Assembly: GCA_030692565.1 (NCBI GenBank)
Contig: JAUYAO010000047.1
Coordinates: 1 to 64,000, forward strand
Direction of reading: 5' to 3'
Length of the DNA: 64,000 nucleotides
Source: Nitrospira sp.
Lineage (GTDB): Bacteria; Nitrospirota; Nitrospiria; Nitrospirales; Nitrospiraceae
In this document: one piece after another, positions 14,747 to 24,344 of the stretch
Layout of the letters: each line of letters starts with the position of its first letter
Numbering within the stretch: position 1 is the first letter of the stretch
Position numbers and translations under genes: made by a program
Notes under the pieces: generated by a model
What the model was told of the DNA's origin: nothing
Databases searched by the model: none
The model's input: only the letters and a program-made list of their open reading frames with translations

Positions 14747-14946
14747 GCACGAACCCCCTCCACCCATGCCTCATGAGTTGGACGACTGTCCAGAGGCAGA
14801 TCGAGTGCGAGTAAGCAAGGGATGATACAGGATTCGAATCGCCTATTGCAAGGAGACTCCCTAGTCTTTCAAGAACTTGCGTCTGCGTTTTGGACGCAGC
14901 CTGTCTACCATTGACTGTCCCCATATCACTTTGAGACCATGGCACT

Positions 14947-15177
14947 GTGGATTTCGAATTACTCGGCCCCGTGACTCAAATTGAAACGTTTGCGGTCGGG
15001 TCGCGAATCCATGAGATCGCCCGACTTCGAAAGTTCTATGGCAAGGGACGCTGGCGAAAGCGGAAAGGCGTCGCGAGCATCCGGCTCTCGGATGGCTCAA
15101 TTCATCTTGCTGAACTTCATTGGTACGAAGCAACGGGGATAGGCCGGAAGGAATACAAAATCAAGCGATTACTCTGA
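14947..15177 (+). CDS. Hypothetical protein, 76 aa
   Basis: Small basic protein starting at GTG, ending in YKIKRLL. The C-terminal half (SIRLSDGSIHLAELHWYEA) has a beta-hairpin look seen in small SH3-like proteins, but I recognise no family. It is 10 bases from the next plus-strand gene, which suggests a two-gene unit. It is divergent from pheA. Confidence 0.55.
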   Translation: MDFELLGPVTQIETFAVGSRIHEIARLRKFYGKGRWRKRKGVASIRLSDGSIHLAELHWYEATGIGRKEYKIKRLL

Positions 15178-15187
15178 GGCAACCACC

Positions 15188-15424
15188 ATGCACAAGCTCA
15201 CACCTGTGGCTTCCCGACTTCTGATCTGTGTAGAGAACGAGGGGTACCTCGTTTCTCTTGAAAAGCGAAAGATCTACGTGGCGCTTCCCGATGCCATTGC
15301 CCTCAAACGTGGGCAAGTTCGTGTTATCGATGAATCCGGCGAGGACTATCTCTATCCCAAGAGCCTCTTCCTGCCGATCACCCTCCCGGCATCGCTCCGT
15401 AAAGCCATCTTGAATGCCGCCTGA
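15188..15424 (+). CDS. Hypothetical protein, 78 aa
   Basis: Beta-rich small protein (MHKLTPVASRLL...), without signal peptide or membrane segment. The pattern 'hydrophobic strand, short turn, GxVRVIDESGEDYLYP' suggests an SH3-like barrel, but no family is recognised. Part of its 3' end, together with the bases after it, is repeated about 1.6 kb downstream at 16988, which marks a duplication or insertion junction. Confidence 0.6.
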   Translation: MHKLTPVASRLLICVENEGYLVSLEKRKIYVALPDAIALKRGQVRVIDESGEDYLYPKSLFLPITLPASLRKAILNAA

Positions 15425-15625
15425 CACCGTCGCCGTAGCGGCTCCATGACCACCTCCGGAGAGAAGTGGGACATTGATAGATTCCCGGGTGAATTCCCGA
15501 TTGGCTATGCCGACAAAAGGTTGAGGTGTTGGTTATTTCGGGTCCACCTCAACCTGGCGCCATCTTCGATCAGTTGATGACGGGAGGACAGCATAAGGTC
15601 AAGCAACAACCCCCGTCATTTCCGT
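15398..15625. repeat. Direct repeat copy 1 (gene 3' end plus structured intergenic DNA)
   Basis: Two blocks of this stretch recur, diverged, at 16988-17165. The first block begins CTCCGTAAAGCCATCTTGAA (3' end of the 78-aa gene). The second contains CATCTTCGATCAG and a hairpin with arms ATGACGGG (15577-15584) and CCCGTCAT (15612-15619). This copy has an extra inverted repeat, GGTTGAGGTG/CACCTCAACC, at 15519-15554. The copies bracket the DUF5674/HigA-like genes. From here to 15843 no gene is seen. Confidence 0.75.
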
Positions 15626-15843
15626 CCGCATCAAGACAGCCAGAAGACTCCTTAGTTTCCCCATCCAGCCATGCTCGGCCTATCCATCCGCTGATAGAAC
15701 GGACGCTCCCTGCCCGTCTTTCGTTCCTGCCCCTACGCACAGGAGAGCAGCGGACATGACTCTTGACAGGGGCAGGCATAATCCGCAATCGTGCCTCCGT
15801 ACTAAGTATCGGAATACTGACACGTTGACAGGGCTGGAAGACT

Positions 15844-16191
15844 ATGGAAATCAAGATCGTCCGTGACGCCATCACCAAGGCTGAGCTGAACGAGATGGCC
15901 AAACAGCAGTTTGGCGATATGGTCAAGGCCGTCGTCGACGTGGAACAGCGCATTATGGCGATCGGCGGAGAACTGCATTCGGACGAAGAGGCGATGCTCC
16001 TCGATCAGGGGTCTGCACAGAAAAACCTCTGGGGAATCAATCTCTACCCCGAACAGCCGATAGCAGAATGGATCGAGTTCGATTCCATGATCAATGTGCG
16101 CCCCTCAGGCGGAAATCGTTCCCGAGACGTCGAACGGACCGAGATCCGCGAAACCATCACCGCGATCGTCAATCGATTGGCTAAGGAGTAA
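15844..16191 (+). CDS. DUF5674-family protein
   Basis: 115 residues. The sequence matches my memory of the DUF5674 family: an N-terminal helix with LNEMAKQQFGDMVKAVVD, a central GGELHSDEEAMLLDQGS stretch and NLYPE. No catalytic motif is known to me. It is followed after 5 bases by a small helical protein and then a HigA-like regulator, the layout of an addiction-type module. That role is inference from neighbours only. Confidence 0.7.
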   Translation: MEIKIVRDAITKAELNEMAKQQFGDMVKAVVDVEQRIMAIGGELHSDEEAMLLDQGSAQKNLWGINLYPEQPIAEWIEFDSMINVRPSGGNRSRDVERTEIRETITAIVNRLAKE

Positions 16192-16196
16192 GCGGC

Positions 16197-16526
16197 ATGT
16201 CACACGTCCATGCGAATCTCGCGACAGGCCGATGGCAAACCTTGTCTCTCATGGAACAGCTGGCGAATGTCGGGAGCGATGTGGCACGTGCGCGTCGCTG
16301 GCAAGAGAAAGATCCCCGGCTTTCCGAACAAGCGTTCATCCGCGCATTAGAGCTACTCGACTTGTCGATAGGGGATCACCGCTGGAAAGGTCGCAGGAAA
16401 GAACTCACACGTGTGCGCGAGCTGCTCTGCGATGCGATGGCAGGGGGCGCCGCATATGGTAGCGACCTAGCCAGCCTAGACCGCTACTTCCTCCACTTCG
16501 CCGTCGCGGCACGAGCCGGCCATTAA
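16197..16526 (+). CDS. Hypothetical helical protein, 109 aa, partner of DUF5674 gene
   Basis: All-helical small protein with the repeated pattern LARxW... and ALELLDLSIGDHRWKGRRKEL. No family recognised with certainty; proteins with this look often stand beside DUF5674 genes. The gap of 5 bases to the preceding gene suggests translational coupling. Function unknown. Confidence 0.65.
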   Translation: MSHVHANLATGRWQTLSLMEQLANVGSDVARARRWQEKDPRLSEQAFIRALELLDLSIGDHRWKGRRKELTRVRELLCDAMAGGAAYGSDLASLDRYFLHFAVAARAGH

Positions 16527-16537
16527 GAAGCCCAACG

Positions 16538-16837
16538 ATGCGCATGAAGAGCCCTCTTTATCCAGGATTGTCGGTGCGGCATGACGGCCTCGACCCGCTG
16601 GGACTTTCCGTAGCGAAAGGGGCACAGGTGCTGGGTGTTACGCGGCAGGCCATGAATAACCTGGTCAGCGGCAAGGCCTGGATTTCCACCCAAATGGCAT
16701 TCCGTCTGAAAAAGGCATTCGAGGGCGGCGCGGAAACCTGGCGGCGCATGCAGGCCGCTTATGACCTGGCACAAGTGGAGAAGTACGCTGGAAAGATCAA
16801 AGTCCAACGCGTAAAAGACGCATTAGCATCGGCCTAA
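16538..16837 (+). CDS. HigA-family antitoxin/XRE regulator without a HigB partner
   Basis: 99 residues. The N-terminal PLYPGLSVRHDGLDPLGLSV and the helix-turn-helix KGAQVLGVTRQAMNNLVSGK are typical of HigA antitoxins of the VapI/HigA group, which bind their own promoter. The usual HigB toxin (about 92 aa, directly upstream) is not found; the two genes before it are the DUF5674 protein and the 109-aa helical protein. It is therefore an orphan or has a different partner. Confidence 0.82.
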   Translation: MRMKSPLYPGLSVRHDGLDPLGLSVAKGAQVLGVTRQAMNNLVSGKAWISTQMAFRLKKAFEGGAETWRRMQAAYDLAQVEKYAGKIKVQRVKDALASA

Positions 16838-16987
16838 CCCCGATCGGAGCACGGATTGCGCAGCGCCATGTAAGCCCGAGAATGGGCGGCTACGAGAACT
16901 ATATGATTGCAAGACCTCCTCTGAAAGACGGCCTGGGTATCGCTAGCAAGTCAATAGTCATGCCTGACCCCCGAATCCCCAATCCTC

Positions 16988-17165
16988 GCTCCGTAAAGCC
17001 ATCTTGAATGCCGCGTGACATCGCCGCTTCAATTTCTCCACAACCTCAGCCGGCAGAGAAGAAGCGTGCGTTATTTCGGATCCACCTCGCTCTGGCCCCA
17101 TCTTCGATCAGCTGATGACGGGATGACGGTACGAGGTCAAGCAACGACCCCCGTCATTTTTTCCG
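16988..17165. repeat. Direct repeat copy 2
   Basis: Diverged second copy of the segment at 15398-15625. It begins CTCCGTAAAGCCATCTTGAA and keeps the hairpin ATGACGGG (17115-17122)/CCCGTCAT (17150-17157), here followed by a run of T. It joins directly onto an ISL3-type transposase remnant at about 17166. From 16838 to here nothing coding is seen. Confidence 0.75.
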
Positions 17166-17326
17166 AACACAAGGTCAGCCTCGGCCTGGTGGAGGGACTC
17201 AACAACAAGATCCGTATCCTCCAGCGGCGGACCTACGGCTACCGTGATGCGGACTACCTGAAACTTAAACTCGTCGCGGCGTTCCTGCCTCCGTTAACAC
17301 GGAGTGCAGAAAAGCACCCACTGTGA
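17166..17326 (+). pseudogene. ISL3-family transposase, C-terminal remnant
   Basis: About 50 codons encode LGLVEGLNNKIRILQRRTYG followed by YRDADYLKLKL. This is the conserved C-terminus of ISL3-family DDE transposases (usual consensus GLNNKIRVIQRRAYG). The N-terminal 350 or so residues and both ends of the element are missing. It follows repeat copy 2, so an ISL3 element may have taken part in the local duplication. Confidence 0.75.
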
Positions 17327-17664
17327 CCCACGGAGATCCTATTTATAGTTTGTCGGCGCATGTATGATTTCTACATTTAGTTAGGATTATGAACGCTAGA
17401 GCAGTAGTGTTTAGCTAAATTCGAGGTTAGCTCTCTCGAATCCGATTGGCGCTGTTTGAGGAAAGCTTGTTCAATGGGGTGAGAGCGGCGAAGTCGTACT
17501 GCTCAATGAGGAAAATGGTGACGTCGTCGCTTAGTAAGGACATGTTTTACTTGACTAAACACACGGCCCCGTATCTGCGATACGATTTGCGAAAAACAGG
17601 CGTGACATCGGCTTGCCGCATGACAGTCCGTAAATTATTTTGAAGAAACTCTAGGGAGGGGAAA
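17327..17664. other. Intergenic, AT-richer, no gene seen
   Basis: Between the ISL3 remnant and the next gene. Base composition is clearly lower in GC than the flanks. A short open frame (17446-17643) has no ribosome binding site and no family likeness and is not called. Probably residue of past insertions. Confidence 0.5.
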
Positions 17665-17991
17665 ATGGCTGATAAGAAAACGGTGATATTTGTGCCTAAG
17701 AAAGGGAAAGCGGCTGAGTGGGCCTTTCATCCCTCGGCTCAAGTGAGGAAGAACTATCCGGATGCGGAAGTCGAGTTTCTGGGGATGGATGTTCAAGAAG
17801 GTGAAATTCTCTCGCTTATCCCAGTGAGCCAGGAAACCCTGAAGCAAATGAAGGTCGTGACTATCGGCGAAGGACGAGTGGAGCTTTTAAATTTCGATCG
17901 CGACTGGCAAGAAGGGAAGACAGGTTCCAGCAATGCTGAGAATGTCTGGGACATTGATCAGATGATTTCTGCGTGGTCCAGTGCCGACTAA
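17665..17991 (+). CDS. Hypothetical protein, 108 aa, upstream partner of a HEPN-like gene
   Basis: A strong AGGGAGGGG stands before the ATG. The protein is soluble, alpha/beta, starting MADKKTVIFVPKKGKAAEW. No known domain recognised. It overlaps the next gene by 11 bases, so the two form a tightly coupled pair. In such pairs with a HEPN-like second gene the small first protein can be an antitoxin; that is only an analogy. Confidence 0.65.
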   Translation: MADKKTVIFVPKKGKAAEWAFHPSAQVRKNYPDAEVEFLGMDVQEGEILSLIPVSQETLKQMKVVTIGEGRVELLNFDRDWQEGKTGSSNAENVWDIDQMISAWSSAD

Positions 17992-18759
17992 GAGTAAACC
18001 AACAACCACTCGAACAGCGGTTGCGCCGGTTGTTAATGAAACCGACTGCAAAAGGATTCTGCGCTCCTTAGGGGTGGCATCTAGCGCGGAATGGTTGCGT
18101 TGGTGCAAATCATACCCGCTTAAGCAAAGACGACTTTACCTCCCCTCTCGGCCTGAGAAATCGTATGACAATCCAGCATTCTGGCGTGAGTATTCAGGGA
18201 ATTATCCGTTCCATTGGCACGAGTTTCACGGCCTGCGGCGCAACCGCCCTGAGAAATTGCCGCGTGAAGAACTTGCGAACTGGGCGAGATATGCTGCGCG
18301 GTATAAAGCCGCTTCGGCTTACCGGGGAATTCGGTTCTGCGGAATGAAAGAAGAGACCGGACGCGGCTACAGCGCGGCACTCGGTGTCTTTTTAGCCTAC
18401 ACGGCACTTGAGGCATACTGGACGGCGAGTGGTGAAGAACAATCAAAGGGATTCATAGACCCACAGCTGGCAGGTTTAATCCGGACCGCTTTAAAGTCAG
18501 GTGCCGACCTTGCCGACGGCCTAACAAACCAAGGTTTAAAAAGCGCGTTGTCAGTTTTCTGAACGGTGACGTAGATGATGTGCTCGTAATCGCTCGTGCT
18601 CTGCGGAATCTCGTCGCACACGGGATATTCACTCCCTGGGGAGCGCACTCAGTGAGTTTGAAGGCGGCAATGGCGTTCGATGATCTAGCGCAATGCCTGT
18701 TGCGCTACTCCGAAAGTCGGTTTCGACGGCACTGTCTTCAAACACGAGCAACAACATGA
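17981..18759 (+). pseudogene. HEPN-like protein gene with a frameshift at 18558
   Basis: The first frame (GTG start, 193 codons) stops at 18560-18562 directly after GTTTTCTGA. Reading CTG from 18559 instead gives 66 more codons with no stop until 18757. These contain ALRNLVAHGIFTPWGA, whose RNLVAH fits the R-x4-H motif of HEPN ribonucleases. One extra T in the TTTT run (18555-18558) would restore one protein of about 259 aa. The first part has GYSAALGVFLAYTALEAYW, a helix typical of the HEPN bundle. Either a real single-base loss, a sequencing error or, less likely, programmed slippage. It overlaps the 108-aa gene. Confidence 0.65.
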
Positions 18760-18844
18760 CCTTGATCTACCTCGCCTATGCCAATGGGCGCAGCACGTCG
18801 GTTGGTCTGACTGCGGCACCGGATGGAGACAGGAGAAGGAACTC

Positions 18845-19231
18845 ATGAAAGAGCGCTCTATTCCACAATGTGCAGAAATCACGCTCCCCATCGGATGCGA
18901 ACCGCCAATCGTTCACTGTCCTATTTGTGGAAAACCGACTCTTGAGCCAGAAGGTGGTGGAGCCACTCCGTGTCGTCACGTCGCATTCATATACGTGGGC
19001 ATAGCCGGAGAATTTGAATACGAATCTGACGAGTTCAAAAGTAAAACCCAAAGTATCGAAGACGAAGAATTTACATTATTTACCTTCAGGGAATTCCTGC
19101 AAAAGTCCGACTATGGAAATGAGTTGCTCGTGCTGGAATTCACGTCTGGAGGAATGGCCTGTGGGCCAGTTCGACGTACGGATGTTTTTGGTTTTGACTA
19201 CGGCACACTGGAGCAACCTCATGATTCCTAA
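18845..19231 (+). CDS. Hypothetical protein with zinc-finger-like CPxCGK motif
   Basis: 128 residues, with HCPICGKPTLEPEGGGATPC near residue 25 as a likely zinc knuckle (third and fourth ligand from the later Cys/His). The rest is alpha/beta and acidic (SIEDEEFTLF). No family recognised. It lies between the HEPN-like gene and the DUF2779 nuclease on the same strand, in AT-richer DNA. Start uncertain; the ATG has AGGAG about 9 bases upstream. Confidence 0.6.
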   Translation: MKERSIPQCAEITLPIGCEPPIVHCPICGKPTLEPEGGGATPCRHVAFIYVGIAGEFEYESDEFKSKTQSIEDEEFTLFTFREFLQKSDYGNELLVLEFTSGGMACGPVRRTDVFGFDYGTLEQPHDS

Positions 19232-19262
19232 AAAGAACTCTCTTCTGAAGGAAGGTTCCTCT

Positions 19263-19303
19263 GCTGAGTTGCAGTCACTAAGGGTTCCGGTAAGCAACTC
19301 AGC
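19263..19303. other. Long-armed hairpin
   Basis: Perfect 10-base arms GCTGAGTTGC (19263-19272) and GCAACTCAGC (19294-19303) with a 21-base loop, 31 bases after the 128-aa gene. No T run follows, so it may be a terminator without tail or a recombination site. The rest of 19232-19484 holds nothing I can name. Confidence 0.5.
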
Positions 19304-19484
19304 TTGGGCGAGCTCTTATTAGTTTAAGCGGTTGGTTCATTCCTTCCATAGGGTAAAAATGATGCGCACGATTCCCTCGAAAGCATCTGGGTGGGTAATC
19401 AGGCTCTCAACGGGTCCCTAGGTTGCAGACCTCTTTCCGTACCGGCTTCCATTATGAACTTCTTAACGAATACGCCGCCTTGAG

Positions 19485-21434
19485 ATGCCACTCCGATACC
19501 TTACAAAATCCCGCTTTACGCTTGCCACTGAATGTCCGACAAAACTGTATTTCACGGGCAAGGACACTGAATATCAGAATCTCAAAAAGGACGATTCGTT
19601 TCTGGAGATGCTGGCTGACGGAGGATTTCAAGTCGGAGCCTTAGCCAAGCTCATGTACCCCAACGGGCAAGGCATTACCGCGAAGGATCATGCCGCTGCT
19701 GAGGAGGAAACGAAAGAACTCCTGAAGCGCGACGAAGTCATCTTATTCGAGCCAGCCCTTCGTCACGGAGACCTCTTCGTCCGGATCGACATCCTGGCTA
19801 AACGGAAGGACGCGTTTGATCTCATCGAGGTTAAGGCGAAGTCGTATAAATCCTCCGCCCCCGAGATCGAAGGCAAGCGGGGTGGAATCACCTCGGGGAT
19901 GCTCCCGTACATCCATGACCTCGCATTCCAGACCCATGTGCTCCGTTCCGTCTATCCCAACTCCCGTATTACCAGCTCTCTGTTGATGCCTGATAAGTCA
20001 AAGAAAACCACCATTAATGGGTTGAACCAACTATTCAAAATCGAACGCCAAGCTGGAGCAGTAAAGGTTGACGTAGCCTCTCGTGCCTTGAGTGAAGGAT
20101 GTGGCGACGATGTCCTGACTCTGGTGAATGTTGATCGGTATATCGCAATGGTGATGAGGGAAGGGATTACGTATCCGGGCGGACACGGATTGTTGCCGGA
20201 ATTGGCCGCTCAATGGGCTCAGGCCTATAAAGCCGATTTGCGGATCGCGCCTTCGATTGGGTCTCAGTGCGCCCACTGCGAATTCCGAACTGAGTCGAAC
20301 AATGGCCTCAAGAGCGGATTCAAGGAGTGCTGGACGCGTACCAATAATTGGACAGATGAAGATCTAGAACAGGGGATGGTTCTGGATCTCTGGAATTTTC
20401 GAGGCAAAGATAAGCTGATCGGCAAGGGAGTAGTCAAGCTGAGCCAGGTTCGCCAGGAAGACCTCAACTATCAGAAGGGTGATCGAGGGCTCAGTAACTC
20501 GCAGCGGCAATGGATGCAAGTCGCCGGCATACCTCAAGCGGTGGACAAGGGCGGCTTTTATCTCGATGCAGATTTCATGAAAGCGGAGATGCACCAGTGG
20601 ACGTACCCCTACCACTTCATCGACTTCGAGACCTCCGCTGTGGCGTTGCCCTTCTATAAAGGCATGCATCCCTACGAACAGGTTGCTTTCCAGTTTTCGC
20701 ACCATGCGATGGAGTCCGACGGCAGTGTGCGCCATTCCCATGAATTCCTGCTGGCGAAGCCCGGGATTTTCCCGAACTACGAGTTTGTCAGAAAATTGAA
20801 GGCGGCGTTAGAAGGAAATACCGGCACGGTCTTTATGTGGAGCCATCATGAGAACACCATCCTCGAACGAATAGCCACACAGTTGAATGACGATATAGAT
20901 CCGCCCATCGACAAGAAGAAGCTGGTGGAGTTCATAGGCAATTTAACCAAGGAGGGTGCGCGGGCGATGGTCGATCTGAGGGTCCTGGCTCAGAAGGCCT
21001 ACTTTCATCCAGACACCAAAGGGAGCAATTCCATCAAGAAGGTGTTGCCAGCGGTTTTGAACACATCGGACTATCTGCGTGCGAAGTACAGTCAGCCGAC
21101 TTACGGGGCTGCAAATGGTATCCCGAGTTTGAATTACAAGGATCAAGCCTGGTGGGTTCAAGATGCCAACGGAAGGGTGGTTGACCCGTATGACTCGCTC
21201 AAAGTCTATGCTCAAGATTTATTGGGCGTTGATGCTGGTGATGCAATCACGTCAGAGGAGTTTGGCATTGCAGAAGGCGGCGCAGCCGCGTCAGCTTACG
21301 CAAGGCTCCAATTCGAGAGCTTAGATGAGGCAAGTCGTCAACTGATCGAGAAAGCGCTACTGCGTTATTGCGAACTCGACTCTCTGGCAATGGTGATGAT
21401 TGTGGAAGCCTGGAAAGGTGTAATCGATGCTTAA
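19485..21434 (+). CDS. DUF2779 protein: Cas4/RecB-like nuclease plus DEDD exonuclease-like domain
   Basis: 649 residues in two parts. The N-terminal half looks like a PD-(D/E)XK nuclease of Cas4 type: RIDIL (Asp 102), IEVKAK (Glu 115, Lys 117), one Cys at 17, and CAHC (262, 265) with ECW (282). These four Cys are placed as for the iron-sulfur cluster of Cas4/AddB. The C-terminal half is DUF2779, with HFIDFET (Asp 380, Glu 382) and a late YCELDS as in DnaQ-like exonucleases. The family name is from memory; the nuclease reading is from the visible motifs. Predicted substrate is DNA. It stands beside another PD-(D/E)XK gene in an accessory region. Confidence 0.8.
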   Translation: MPLRYLTKSRFTLATECPTKLYFTGKDTEYQNLKKDDSFLEMLADGGFQVGALAKLMYPNGQGITAKDHAAAEEETKELLKRDEVILFEPALRHGDLFVRIDILAKRKDAFDLIEVKAKSYKSSAPEIEGKRGGITSGMLPYIHDLAFQTHVLRSVYPNSRITSSLLMPDKSKKTTINGLNQLFKIERQAGAVKVDVASRALSEGCGDDVLTLVNVDRYIAMVMREGITYPGGHGLLPELAAQWAQAYKADLRIAPSIGSQCAHCEFRTESNNGLKSGFKECWTRTNNWTDEDLEQGMVLDLWNFRGKDKLIGKGVVKLSQVRQEDLNYQKGDRGLSNSQRQWMQVAGIPQAVDKGGFYLDADFMKAEMHQWTYPYHFIDFETSAVALPFYKGMHPYEQVAFQFSHHAMESDGSVRHSHEFLLAKPGIFPNYEFVRKLKAALEGNTGTVFMWSHHENTILERIATQLNDDIDPPIDKKKLVEFIGNLTKEGARAMVDLRVLAQKAYFHPDTKGSNSIKKVLPAVLNTSDYLRAKYSQPTYGAANGIPSLNYKDQAWWVQDANGRVVDPYDSLKVYAQDLLGVDAGDAITSEEFGIAEGGAAASAYARLQFESLDEASRQLIEKALLRYCELDSLAMVMIVEAWKGVIDA

Positions 21435-21598
21435 ATCGAGTCGATGATGGCGTTCTCAAGTGCAAGAACCTTGGGCACTGAGGAGGAACATCGTGGCGGT
21501 GACAGATAAGTGTTAGGCAAGGGGTCGCACCTCGGTGTATCGCATTTCATTTCGGTTGGATCGGTCGCAACAATTTTATGCTGGAGGCCTGACATACA

Positions 21599-22681
21599 AT
21601 GGGAGCTATGTTTATTACGCAGCCAACCGGCGAACTGATGAGATTGAATAAGACGGAGTACGACTCTGAAAAAATGCTTCAATCGTTGTTAGCCAACTAT
21701 CCAGACATATTGGCTAGCGAGGCGCAGAGTGGAGCCTCTCGAAAGTGGATGTTAGTCAAACAAGAACTGGGTATTCCAGATAGCCGTGATGGTAAGGACC
21801 GGTGGTTTCTTGATCATCTGTTTCTCGATCAAGAGGGGATTCCTACCTTCGTTGAAGTGAAACGCGAAGCGGATAGTCGTATATACCGAGAAATAGTCGG
21901 TCAAATGCTCGAATATGTGGCGAACGCAGACGCGTACTGGCAACCGGATCATATAAAGCAGGTTTTTCAGGCACAATGCCAAGCCAAAGGGTTAGACGAA
22001 TCTGACGAACTTGAAACGAAACTGGGTGTGGAGGATCCACATGAGTTTTGGAACAACGTAGAAAAAAACCGACGCGCAGGGCAGGTACGGCTGGTTTTTG
22101 TTGCGGATGTCATCCCTCAAAGATTACAGAGAGTTGTTGAGTTTTTGAATGGCCAGACCGATCCCGCCGAGATATTCGCGATAGAGGTTGGACAATATAC
22201 CGACGAGCATCAAAAGATACGCATTCTCGCTCCAAAAATAATCGGCAATACACCCAAGGCGCAATCTGTAAAGAACCATGACGATCGACCCAATACTTGG
22301 CCGGAAGCATTGGCTCAAATTCAAAATGAAGATGTCAGGAAATTCTTTCTAGAGGAGTCGGAGAGATGTAAGAATAACCCTGCCATCAAGGGTGCCCCAG
22401 CCCTCAAGAAAATTTACTATGAATGTCAAAGGCTACGTCGCTGGAGAATACTCGCTAATCAATCTGATGTGAACGTGTACCAGCAAATGCGTTTTGAAGA
22501 CGATCTGTCTTTTTGGAAGCGCCGATTCCCAAACATCCAAATCAGGACAACGGATGACCATAAGCAACTCTCATTCAATTTGTCTCGTCGCGAAGAATTG
22601 GACCTCTTTAGGCGGGTGATTGAGAAGGAAGGTCCAAAGCTAAACTTTCTTCCCCGTAGTAAGGCGGGTGATCCCGCTTGA
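21599..22681 (+). CDS. PD-(D/E)XK nuclease-like protein
   Basis: 360 residues. The core motif is visible: WFLDHLFLDQEG with the first acidic residue (Asp 72), then FVEVKRE (Glu 86, Lys 88), then REIVGQMLEYVANA as the helix carrying the conserved Gln. The arrangement is that of NucS/DUF91-like and restriction-endonuclease-like folds. The remaining 200 residues have no recognised domain. GGAGG lies about 10 bases before the ATG. Probably a DNA nuclease, perhaps in phage defence with its DUF2779 neighbour (inference). Confidence 0.75.
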   Translation: MGAMFITQPTGELMRLNKTEYDSEKMLQSLLANYPDILASEAQSGASRKWMLVKQELGIPDSRDGKDRWFLDHLFLDQEGIPTFVEVKREADSRIYREIVGQMLEYVANADAYWQPDHIKQVFQAQCQAKGLDESDELETKLGVEDPHEFWNNVEKNRRAGQVRLVFVADVIPQRLQRVVEFLNGQTDPAEIFAIEVGQYTDEHQKIRILAPKIIGNTPKAQSVKNHDDRPNTWPEALAQIQNEDVRKFFLEESERCKNNPAIKGAPALKKIYYECQRLRRWRILANQSDVNVYQQMRFEDDLSFWKRRFPNIQIRTTDDHKQLSFNLSRREELDLFRRVIEKEGPKLNFLPRSKAGDPA

Positions 22682-22771
22682 ATTACCGTGTCCTCAACGG
22701 ACGGCGGAATAGTCAGCGTGGAAAGAGATGTGGTCGTTGCTTGACTTTGCACTTCGATAAACGATGCCCCA

Positions 22772-22841
22772 GTGAGATCCGCGCCAATGCCGCGACGGCT
22801 TAGTCCCGCGACCTTAGGCCTGCAACCGTCGCTTACTAGGA
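22772..22841. repeat. Outer direct repeat, left copy
   Basis: Contains GCGCCAATGCCGCGACGGCT and CCCGCGACCTT. A diverged copy lies at 24290-24344. Together the copies bracket the IS fragment, the 165-bp repeats and the damaged toxin-antitoxin pair. Directly after it comes TAGGAGCCTGTCCGACATTG, which looks like the end of an IS element. Confidence 0.6.
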
Positions 22842-22934
22842 GCCTGTCCGACATTGACCCTAGGCCCCCTTGCCAGGAGCCTTCGACTCGTGTAATGAGC
22901 AGAATACACTAGCTATTCTATAGGAGTCCCTGCG

Positions 22935-23166
22935 ATGCCTGGACGAACGTTTCGCCCCTACGATCAGGAGCAGATCTTCTTGTTGCCGCCCTCGCTTCGG
23001 GAGTGGCTGCCGGCAGACCACCGGGCCTCCGTCGTGGCGGACCTGGTCGAGGACTTGGACCTGAAGCCCATCCTGACGACCTATGGCGGCGTGACGCGGG
23101 GCAGCGTTCCGTATGATCCCCGGATGCTGGTGGCCGTCTTGCTCTATGCCTATGCGGTGGGCGGAG
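22935..23166 (+). pseudogene. IS1182-type transposase, N-terminal fragment
   Basis: The first 77 codons encode MPGRTFRPYDQEQIFLLPPS, then LREWLPADHRASVVADLVEDLDL and YDPRMLVAVLLYAYAVG. This is the conserved N-terminus of IS1182-group transposases (usually about 450 aa). The ATG has a good TAGGAGT. At 23163 the homology ends abruptly where a 165-bp repeat begins, and the catalytic DDE part is gone. Confidence 0.82.
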
Positions 23167-23329
23167 GAAACAACGGGGACATTCTGAATTTCCCGGCGCG
23201 TGGCGGTCCGGCGCCTTTCTCGCTGCCTCACCGCTCATCCAACCCATTCAACCGTTCCCCTTTCCCCAACTCCCTCTCGAACCTCACGTTCATACAATTA
23301 CTATCCCCCCCCCCAACCGCAGTGGTAAC
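23163..23329. repeat. 165-bp direct repeat, copy 1
   Basis: Nearly identical to 24063-24225 (a handful of base differences seen by eye). It begins GGAGGAAACAACGGGGACAT and ends CAGTGGTAAC. It contains a C run of 10, against 6 in the other copy. It interrupts the IS1182 fragment. No coding function seen, and from here to 23507 there is no gene. Confidence 0.88.
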
Positions 23330-23513
23330 CATGTCTGAGGGAAAACAAAGGTGCCGGCAACCATTCCAAGTCTCAAATTCGTTGGACGGTTGGCGAGGCC
23401 AGGATGGCGGTATTACTTGAAGCAGTTTCTTGCACTCAGCCCTTGCCTTTTGTGTCAGACGCAACTAGTCTTTCGGCCCAAAAGGACAAAGCCAAGGCCT
23501 AGAGAACTTGAGC

Positions 23514-23839
23514 ATGACCCTTGATGAGATTAGACAGCTTGTTCGGGCAGGTCGGTATGAGGTCAGTATTCATGCACAGCAGGAGCGGCTGGAAGATGAC
23601 CTGGATATCGGTGAGATTGAAGCGGCGTTACTCCAGGGAGATCTCATTGAGGAGTACCCAAACGATCCACGAGGCCCAAGCTGTCTCGTTGGCGCCTGGC
23701 GGGAGCCAAACCGATTCATGCTGTGCTAGGATGGGCTACGACAAAACAACAGGCTGGGCGTACCCTCAGAGTGATCACCGTGTATATTCCCAAGCCGCCA
23801 CGATGGAAGGACCTTCGCACAAGAGGAGCCAGGCCATGA
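23514..23839 (+). pseudogene. DUF4258 toxin-like gene with a frameshift near 23690
   Basis: Reading from ATG 23514 gives MTLDEIRQLVRAGRYEVSIH and then GPSCLV, typical of DUF4258, an MqsR/RelE-like RNase fold. It then runs out of frame to a stop at 23727-23729. Switching frame near 23685-23692 continues with GAKPIHAVLGWATT and RVITVYIPKPPRW, the normal C-terminus, ending at TGA 23837-23839. The restored gene would overlap the antitoxin start by 4 bases. One lost base explains it. The toxin is probably inactive, or the base is a sequencing error. Confidence 0.75.
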
Positions 23840-24087
23840 CGACCTATGCAGACTGTACCTTTTGCGGCGGTGAGGTAGAGGAACGGCAAATCAACTACGA
23901 TTACCGTCGTCGCGACCACCTGCTTGTACTGCAGAACGTGCCGGCCGGCGTCTGTCGGCAGTGTGGAGAAAAATATTTCACCCCCGATGCGCTCAAGCGG
24001 ATGGACCAAAGCTTCCATAATATCTTCGAGCGAGACCAACAGCCTGATCAGGTCTTAGACGGGGAAGAAACAACGGGGACATTCTGA
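23836..24087 (+). CDS. YgiT/MqsA-type zinc-finger antitoxin
   Basis: 83 residues. CTFCGG and CRQCGEKYFTPDAL form the four-Cys zinc site of YgiT-type antitoxin N-terminal domains, which neutralise the adjacent DUF4258/MqsR-like toxin. No DNA-binding HTH domain follows, unlike full MqsA. The last codons (EETTGTF) lie inside copy 2 of the 165-bp repeat, so the original C-terminus may have been replaced. Confidence 0.8.
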   Translation: MTTYADCTFCGGEVEERQINYDYRRRDHLLVLQNVPAGVCRQCGEKYFTPDALKRMDQSFHNIFERDQQPDQVLDGEETTGTF

Positions 24088-24225
24088 ATTTCCCGGCGCG
24101 TGGCGGTCCGGCGCTTTTCTCGCTGCCTCACCGCTCATCCAACCCATTCAACCGTTCCCCTTTCCCCAATTCCCTCTCGAACCTCACGTTCATACAATTG
24201 CTATCCCCCCAACCGCAGTGGTAAC
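24063..24225. repeat. 165-bp direct repeat, copy 2
   Basis: Second copy of 23163-23329, exactly 900 bases downstream until the C run (6 here). It provides the stop codon of the antitoxin gene (CATTCTGA). After it and up to ruvB there is only the outer repeat copy. Confidence 0.88.
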
Positions 24226-24289
24226 GCATTAGTTACCATATCTGCGTCGGAGATCCGGCCAGCTGAAGGTTGCAATCGTATATGTTCCG

Positions 24290-24344
24290 GTGAGGCTTGC
24301 GCCAATGCGGCGGCAGCTTAGGCCCGCGACCTTCGTTCACTAGA
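24290..24344. repeat. Outer direct repeat, right copy
   Basis: Diverged copy of 22772-22841, with GCGCCAATGCGGCGGCAGCT and CCCGCGACCTT followed by CACTAGAAG. It overlaps the last bases of ruvB, so the accessory block joins the conserved chromosome exactly here. Confidence 0.55.

Follow-up and report, generated by a model that had tools for sequence, protein, structure and literature searches.

The genomic island between pheA and ruvB of a Nitrospira chromosome harbours two adjacent genes for predicted nucleases, which are probably best explained as accessory genes that were acquired separately and came to lie side by side. The first, termed ORF A, would be a stand-alone accessory exonuclease of defence islands, and the second, ORF B, reads as an independent restriction-like endonuclease; this joint explanation is the one we favour. 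ORF A belongs to a long form of the DUF2779 family and, judged from its sequence, represents a credible but unproven candidate for a single-gene defence. An earlier note on this DNA had placed two nuclease genes at positions 19485-22681, and both open reading frames are indeed present there, intact and adjacent.

The window, i.e., the whole stretch of DNA that was analysed, comprises 64,000 nt of Nitrospira sp. (assembly GCA_030692565.1, contig JAUYAO010000047.1, positions 1-64,000, forward strand). Within the window, an island of 9.57 kb (14768-24339) separates pheA from ruvB; the gap between the two genes amounts to 9572 bases, compared to approximately 0.1-0.2 kb in 10 of 10 relatives, where the genes adjoin. 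The G+C content of the island is 52.8% versus 57.7% for the remainder of the window, and the two-nuclease stretch (3.2 kb) drops to 50.1%, a value that none of 962 equal-sized windows outside the island reaches. The island contains the remnants of two transposase genes on the forward strand: only the C-terminal end of an ISL3-family transposase (17015-17326; PF01610, E 6e-8, profile positions 203-239 of 240), and only the N-terminal end of an IS1182-family transposase (22935-23420; NF033551, E 6.8e-13, profile positions 1-67 of 488). A HigA-type antitoxin gene (16538-16837, forward strand) scores 77.0 bits against a TIGR02607 cut-off of 47.7. Since the open reading frame in front of it (16197-16526) lacks a Pfam match to the HigB toxin, the antitoxin is possibly an orphan, or else it is paired with an unusual partner. 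Downstream of the nuclease genes, a DUF4258 gene (PF14076, E 5.7e-12) is followed by an MqsA-antitoxin-like gene that starts at around 23836 (23508-24087 for both, forward strand); the MqsA-like match is weak and lies under the curated cut-off (PF15731, E 8.8e-4), and the two genes probably form a toxin-antitoxin pair. The island also carries a DUF5674 gene. Because the pheA-ruvB junction is empty in relatives, and in view of the lower G+C content, the transposase remnants and the toxin-antitoxin-like genes, the block is an acquired, foreign island in a Nitrospira-type chromosome. The AT-richer DNA, the mobile-element remnants and the toxin-antitoxin genes that the earlier note had described are thus all borne out. 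No exact direct or inverted repeats of at least 11 bases were found at the island edges. The pheA-ruvB junction itself is a possible integration spot.

ORF A (19485-21434, forward strand) encodes a protein of 649 amino acids, which matches PF11074/DUF2779 with an E value of 2.6e-24 and 86.3 bits versus a curated cut-off of 23.3, and which stays below the cut-off of the NCBIfam family UU173 (19.7 versus 225 bits). A structure model was built from 18 homologues and reached a mean pLDDT of 80. In this predicted model, residues 1-297 (19485-20375) align with the Cas4 structure 7mi4 (Z 11.7, rmsd 4.8, 202 residues aligned), and residues 373-649 (20601-21431) align with the exonuclease domains of B-family polymerases (Z up to 12.8, rmsd 2.6, 175 residues). 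A Foldseek search with the model returned no match at E <0.001, and therefore the fold assignment rests on the second aligner and on residue conservation. Searches of the PDB with single sequences and with profiles gave nothing significant. ORF A likewise had no significant match in PADLOC-DB 2.0.0, where the best hit was a weak one to Cas4 (E 0.012).

The conservation of the presumptive catalytic residues is strict. In the N-terminal domain, the PD-(D/E)XK residues D102, E115 and K117, as well as the cysteines C17, C262, C265 and C282, are invariant in the alignment of all 18 long-form sequences. The cysteines, one N-terminal and three C-terminal, follow the pattern of a predicted Cas4-type Fe-S cluster; the cysteine loop is poorly modelled (pLDDT <50 at residues 263-278). 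The description of a DUF2779 protein with a Cas4-like nuclease and Fe-S cysteines is hence upheld by the family match, the fold match and the four invariant cysteines. In the C-terminal domain, D380, E382 and D632 are invariant in 18 of 18 long forms and agree with a DEDD-type exonuclease, as does the polymerase-exonuclease fold. The usual ExoII place of ORF A holds no plain aspartate for the fourth residue of the DEDD set. E456 and D497 are conserved even in short-form DUF2779 proteins, and either of them could provide the remaining site.

The same pair of domains in the same order characterizes the DUF2779/PF11074 family at large (RNase H-like family F.17; UU173 family): an RNase H-like superfamily survey describes DUF2779 as a PD-(D/E)XK (DUF83/Cas4-like) domain joined to a predicted 3'-5' exonuclease domain (PMC3985635). 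With solo-Cas4 and other Cas4-family nucleases, ORF A shares the RecB-type fold and the four-cysteine Fe-S motif, but differs from them by the fusion to a DEDD-type exonuclease domain. CRISPR-associated Cas4 is encoded next to cas1 and cas2, whereas a PADLOC scan of the nine other proteins neighbouring ORF A yielded no matches to Cas proteins.

DUF2779 proteins occur in two forms. Almost every Nitrospirales genome searched, that of the window among them (L058:9569-11092, contig C15), encodes a form of approximately 510 amino acids, which is likely a core-like gene in this order. The form of approximately 650 amino acids, to which ORF A belongs, makes up a separate clade in the tree and is distributed sporadically: it is present in 2 of 296 Nitrospirota genomes, in 8/399, 3/158 and 3/250 genomes of beta-proteobacterial groups, and on a Prosthecochloris conjugative plasmid and a Comamonas plasmid. 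The possibility that DUF2779 resides mainly among housekeeping genes therefore applies to the near-universal short form, but not to the island form, which represents a different, sporadic clade. A purely housekeeping function was rejected for the long form, because it is rare and partly located on plasmids. As the two Nitrospira sequences branch within the beta-proteobacterial long forms at moderate support (86/81), the phylogeny fits an arrival of the long form in Nitrospira by horizontal transfer. The short-form paralogue merits attention of its own as a candidate core gene.

Viral sequence collections were also considered. Neither ORF A nor ORF B matched any of 50,697 phage records, and on these grounds a phage-encoded counter-defence was rejected. 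Five IMG/VR contigs carry long-form DUF2779 genes. These contigs may be misassigned, since at least one of them (L072) resembles a BREX island. ORF B retrieved nothing from IMG/VR.

The neighbourhoods of long-form DUF2779 genes, taken as the sequence within 10 kb, contain a variety of unrelated defence genes. These comprise the BREX genes for PglZ and BrxL (L012), BrxL (L010), DrmD together with a type III restriction-modification system (L014), and type I restriction-modification systems (L020, L051 and L114). Moreover, a cassette encoding ThiF-JAB, multiubiquitin-E2, DUF6527 and WYL proteins adjoins the long form in two different lineages and in different arrangements (L112:11014-14559, identical in location to L019, and L113:5285-8840). 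At four loci (L007, L011, L013 and L018), no recognised defence neighbours were found. PADLOC scans combined with profile searches identified defence genes at 8 of 26 loci versus 2 of 20 control stretches from five same or similar genomes under a strict rule (one-sided p=0.09), and at 10 of 26 versus 2 of 20 if NERD-helicases are counted too (p=0.03), figures for which the counting rule and the hallmark list were fixed after looking and to which some closely related loci contribute. Because the rule was set after the loci had been seen and some of the loci are related, the enrichment is suggestive only, a lead rather than proof. The part of the open-access literature naming DUF2779 that was available to us yielded no link of this family to phage defence.

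Genes for a WYL regulator, a NERD-UvrD helicase, a macro-domain protein and DUF2130 also recur near the long form (L004, L012, L014, L017, L020, L021 and L078), in Burkholderiales and in varied order. We do not claim a module of these genes with DUF2779, because their spacing, order and orientation differ between loci that are themselves related.

For ORF A, we infer a nuclease activity, a polarity, a substrate and a role in defence along the following lines. The protein would stand for a sporadic, horizontally moving subfamily with two predicted nuclease active sites per chain. The Cas4-like Fe-S domain might resect one DNA strand, probably in the 5'-3' direction; this polarity is proposed by analogy, because 5'-3' resection on single strands has been reported for Cas4 enzymes (PMC5704561). 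The DEDD domain, in turn, would digest 3' ends, and a single protein could thereby erase both strands from a break. Foreign DNA with free ends, such as the products of neighbouring restriction enzymes, would be a possible target and would thus be destroyed. Put more ambitiously, the entire ~650-aa clade might constitute an unrecognised single-gene anti-phage system, which degrades both strands starting at DNA ends with its Cas4-like nuclease and its proofreading-type polymerase exonuclease domain and is disseminated in beta-proteobacteria, Nitrospira and Chlorobi via plasmids and islands; this broader proposal is tentative, and we grant it clearly less than an even chance. Should phage protection by the long form hold true, a function would be assigned to a widespread family that has been obscure so far, and the single-gene defences would come to include a nuclease with two active sites.

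The strongest competing explanation holds that the long DUF2779 proteins are mobile exonucleases for DNA repair or plasmid accessory functions, devoid of an immune role, and that the defence genes are mere hitch-hikers in the same islands. The long form adjoins SbcCD-like genes on a viral-type contig (L075; identified from reading the sequence rather than through a family search), resides on a conjugative plasmid and is flanked by ordinary genes in several genomes, and the short form related to it has a core-like, almost universal occurrence. Furthermore, a survey of the Cas4 family places solo-Cas4 between repair and defence (PMC5704561). Yet, the repeated association with unrelated systems (BREX, DISARM/type III, type I restriction-modification, ubiquitin-like) in different lineages exceeds what would be expected for a plain repair gene, though statistically this excess is not firm. 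We regard a role confined to repair or plasmid accessory functions as rather unlikely; the present evidence makes the case for a mobile repair exonuclease almost as good as that for an enzyme that cleans up foreign DNA.

ORF B (21599-22681, forward strand) encodes a protein of 360 amino acids with homologues that are 38-43% identical over the nuclease part. In an alignment with four homologues the PD-(D/E)XK pattern D72, D77, E86-V-K88 and Q102 is invariant, in keeping with the PD-(D/E)XK protein announced for this position, and the C-terminal ~115 amino acids align poorly. ORF B has no Pfam match. Its N-terminal part matches the PADLOC profile PDC-S11 (E 2.5e-10) at profile positions 12-191 of 358, a coverage of only half of the profile. 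PDC-S11 is an uncharacterised phage defence candidate, known only from a correlation with resistance to phage across 10 strains of P. aeruginosa (PMC10855318). A fold derived from a single-sequence model was discarded as too poor for use (pLDDT 41).

Homologues of ORF B occur elsewhere without ORF A. One adjoins BREX genes on a Sinorhizobium plasmid, another is accompanied by RloB and an AAA ATPase on one small Lichenicola plasmid, a third lies by transposition genes on a Methylocalor plasmid, and a fourth comes from a different genome of the window's genus (L056).

The question whether the two genes form a unit is answered by their distribution. ORF A and ORF B are located on the same strand at a distance of 164 bases, both are intact, and the sequence between them shows neither a terminator nor a promoter signal above chance. 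Both are also nucleases by sequence in the context of a mobile island. These features would suit a single two-gene defence system, and the earlier note had put forward such a unit as a candidate and neighbourhood conservation as a check. Each gene alone does keep defence-like company elsewhere, but the pair was found in the window only. In Nitrospira sp. RSF3, whose homologue comes closest to ORF A (79% identity), the gene is flanked by other genes, and the genome lacks ORF B. ORF B was found near none of 19 long-form loci in a scan of a species-genome collection, nor near additional long-form loci collected on plasmids, on viral contigs and by searching whole genomes. It was also absent from all of the 20 genomes with long-form DUF2779 (0/20), searched with a query that does match two other Nitrospirota genomes. 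Conversely, no long-form DUF2779 gene is located near the four ORF B homologues. Among 296 Nitrospirota genomes, ORF B occurs in three (that of the window and two others, one of them a marginal match), and only the window's own genome (1/296) possesses both genes. With zero co-occurrences outside the window, a two-gene system of DUF2779 and PD-(D/E)XK proteins was rejected as a candidate, and we consider it highly improbable. Since the genes do not co-occur elsewhere, their pairing in the window is best explained by chance within a single island. That no second case of the pair turned up also shows that a neighbouring position in a defence island is not enough to make two genes a system. Equally improbable is that both genes are idle passengers in a degenerating island: the truncated state of the flanking transposase remnants would suit this reading, but both open reading frames are open over their full length and retain all catalytic residues.

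Two of the ORF B homologues share a feature that is absent from the window copy, namely a gene for an HD-domain phosphohydrolase, which lies in the same orientation 1.2-1.5 kb upstream (L052:5010-7961 and L056:7391-10638). These two phosphohydrolases are 35% identical to each other.
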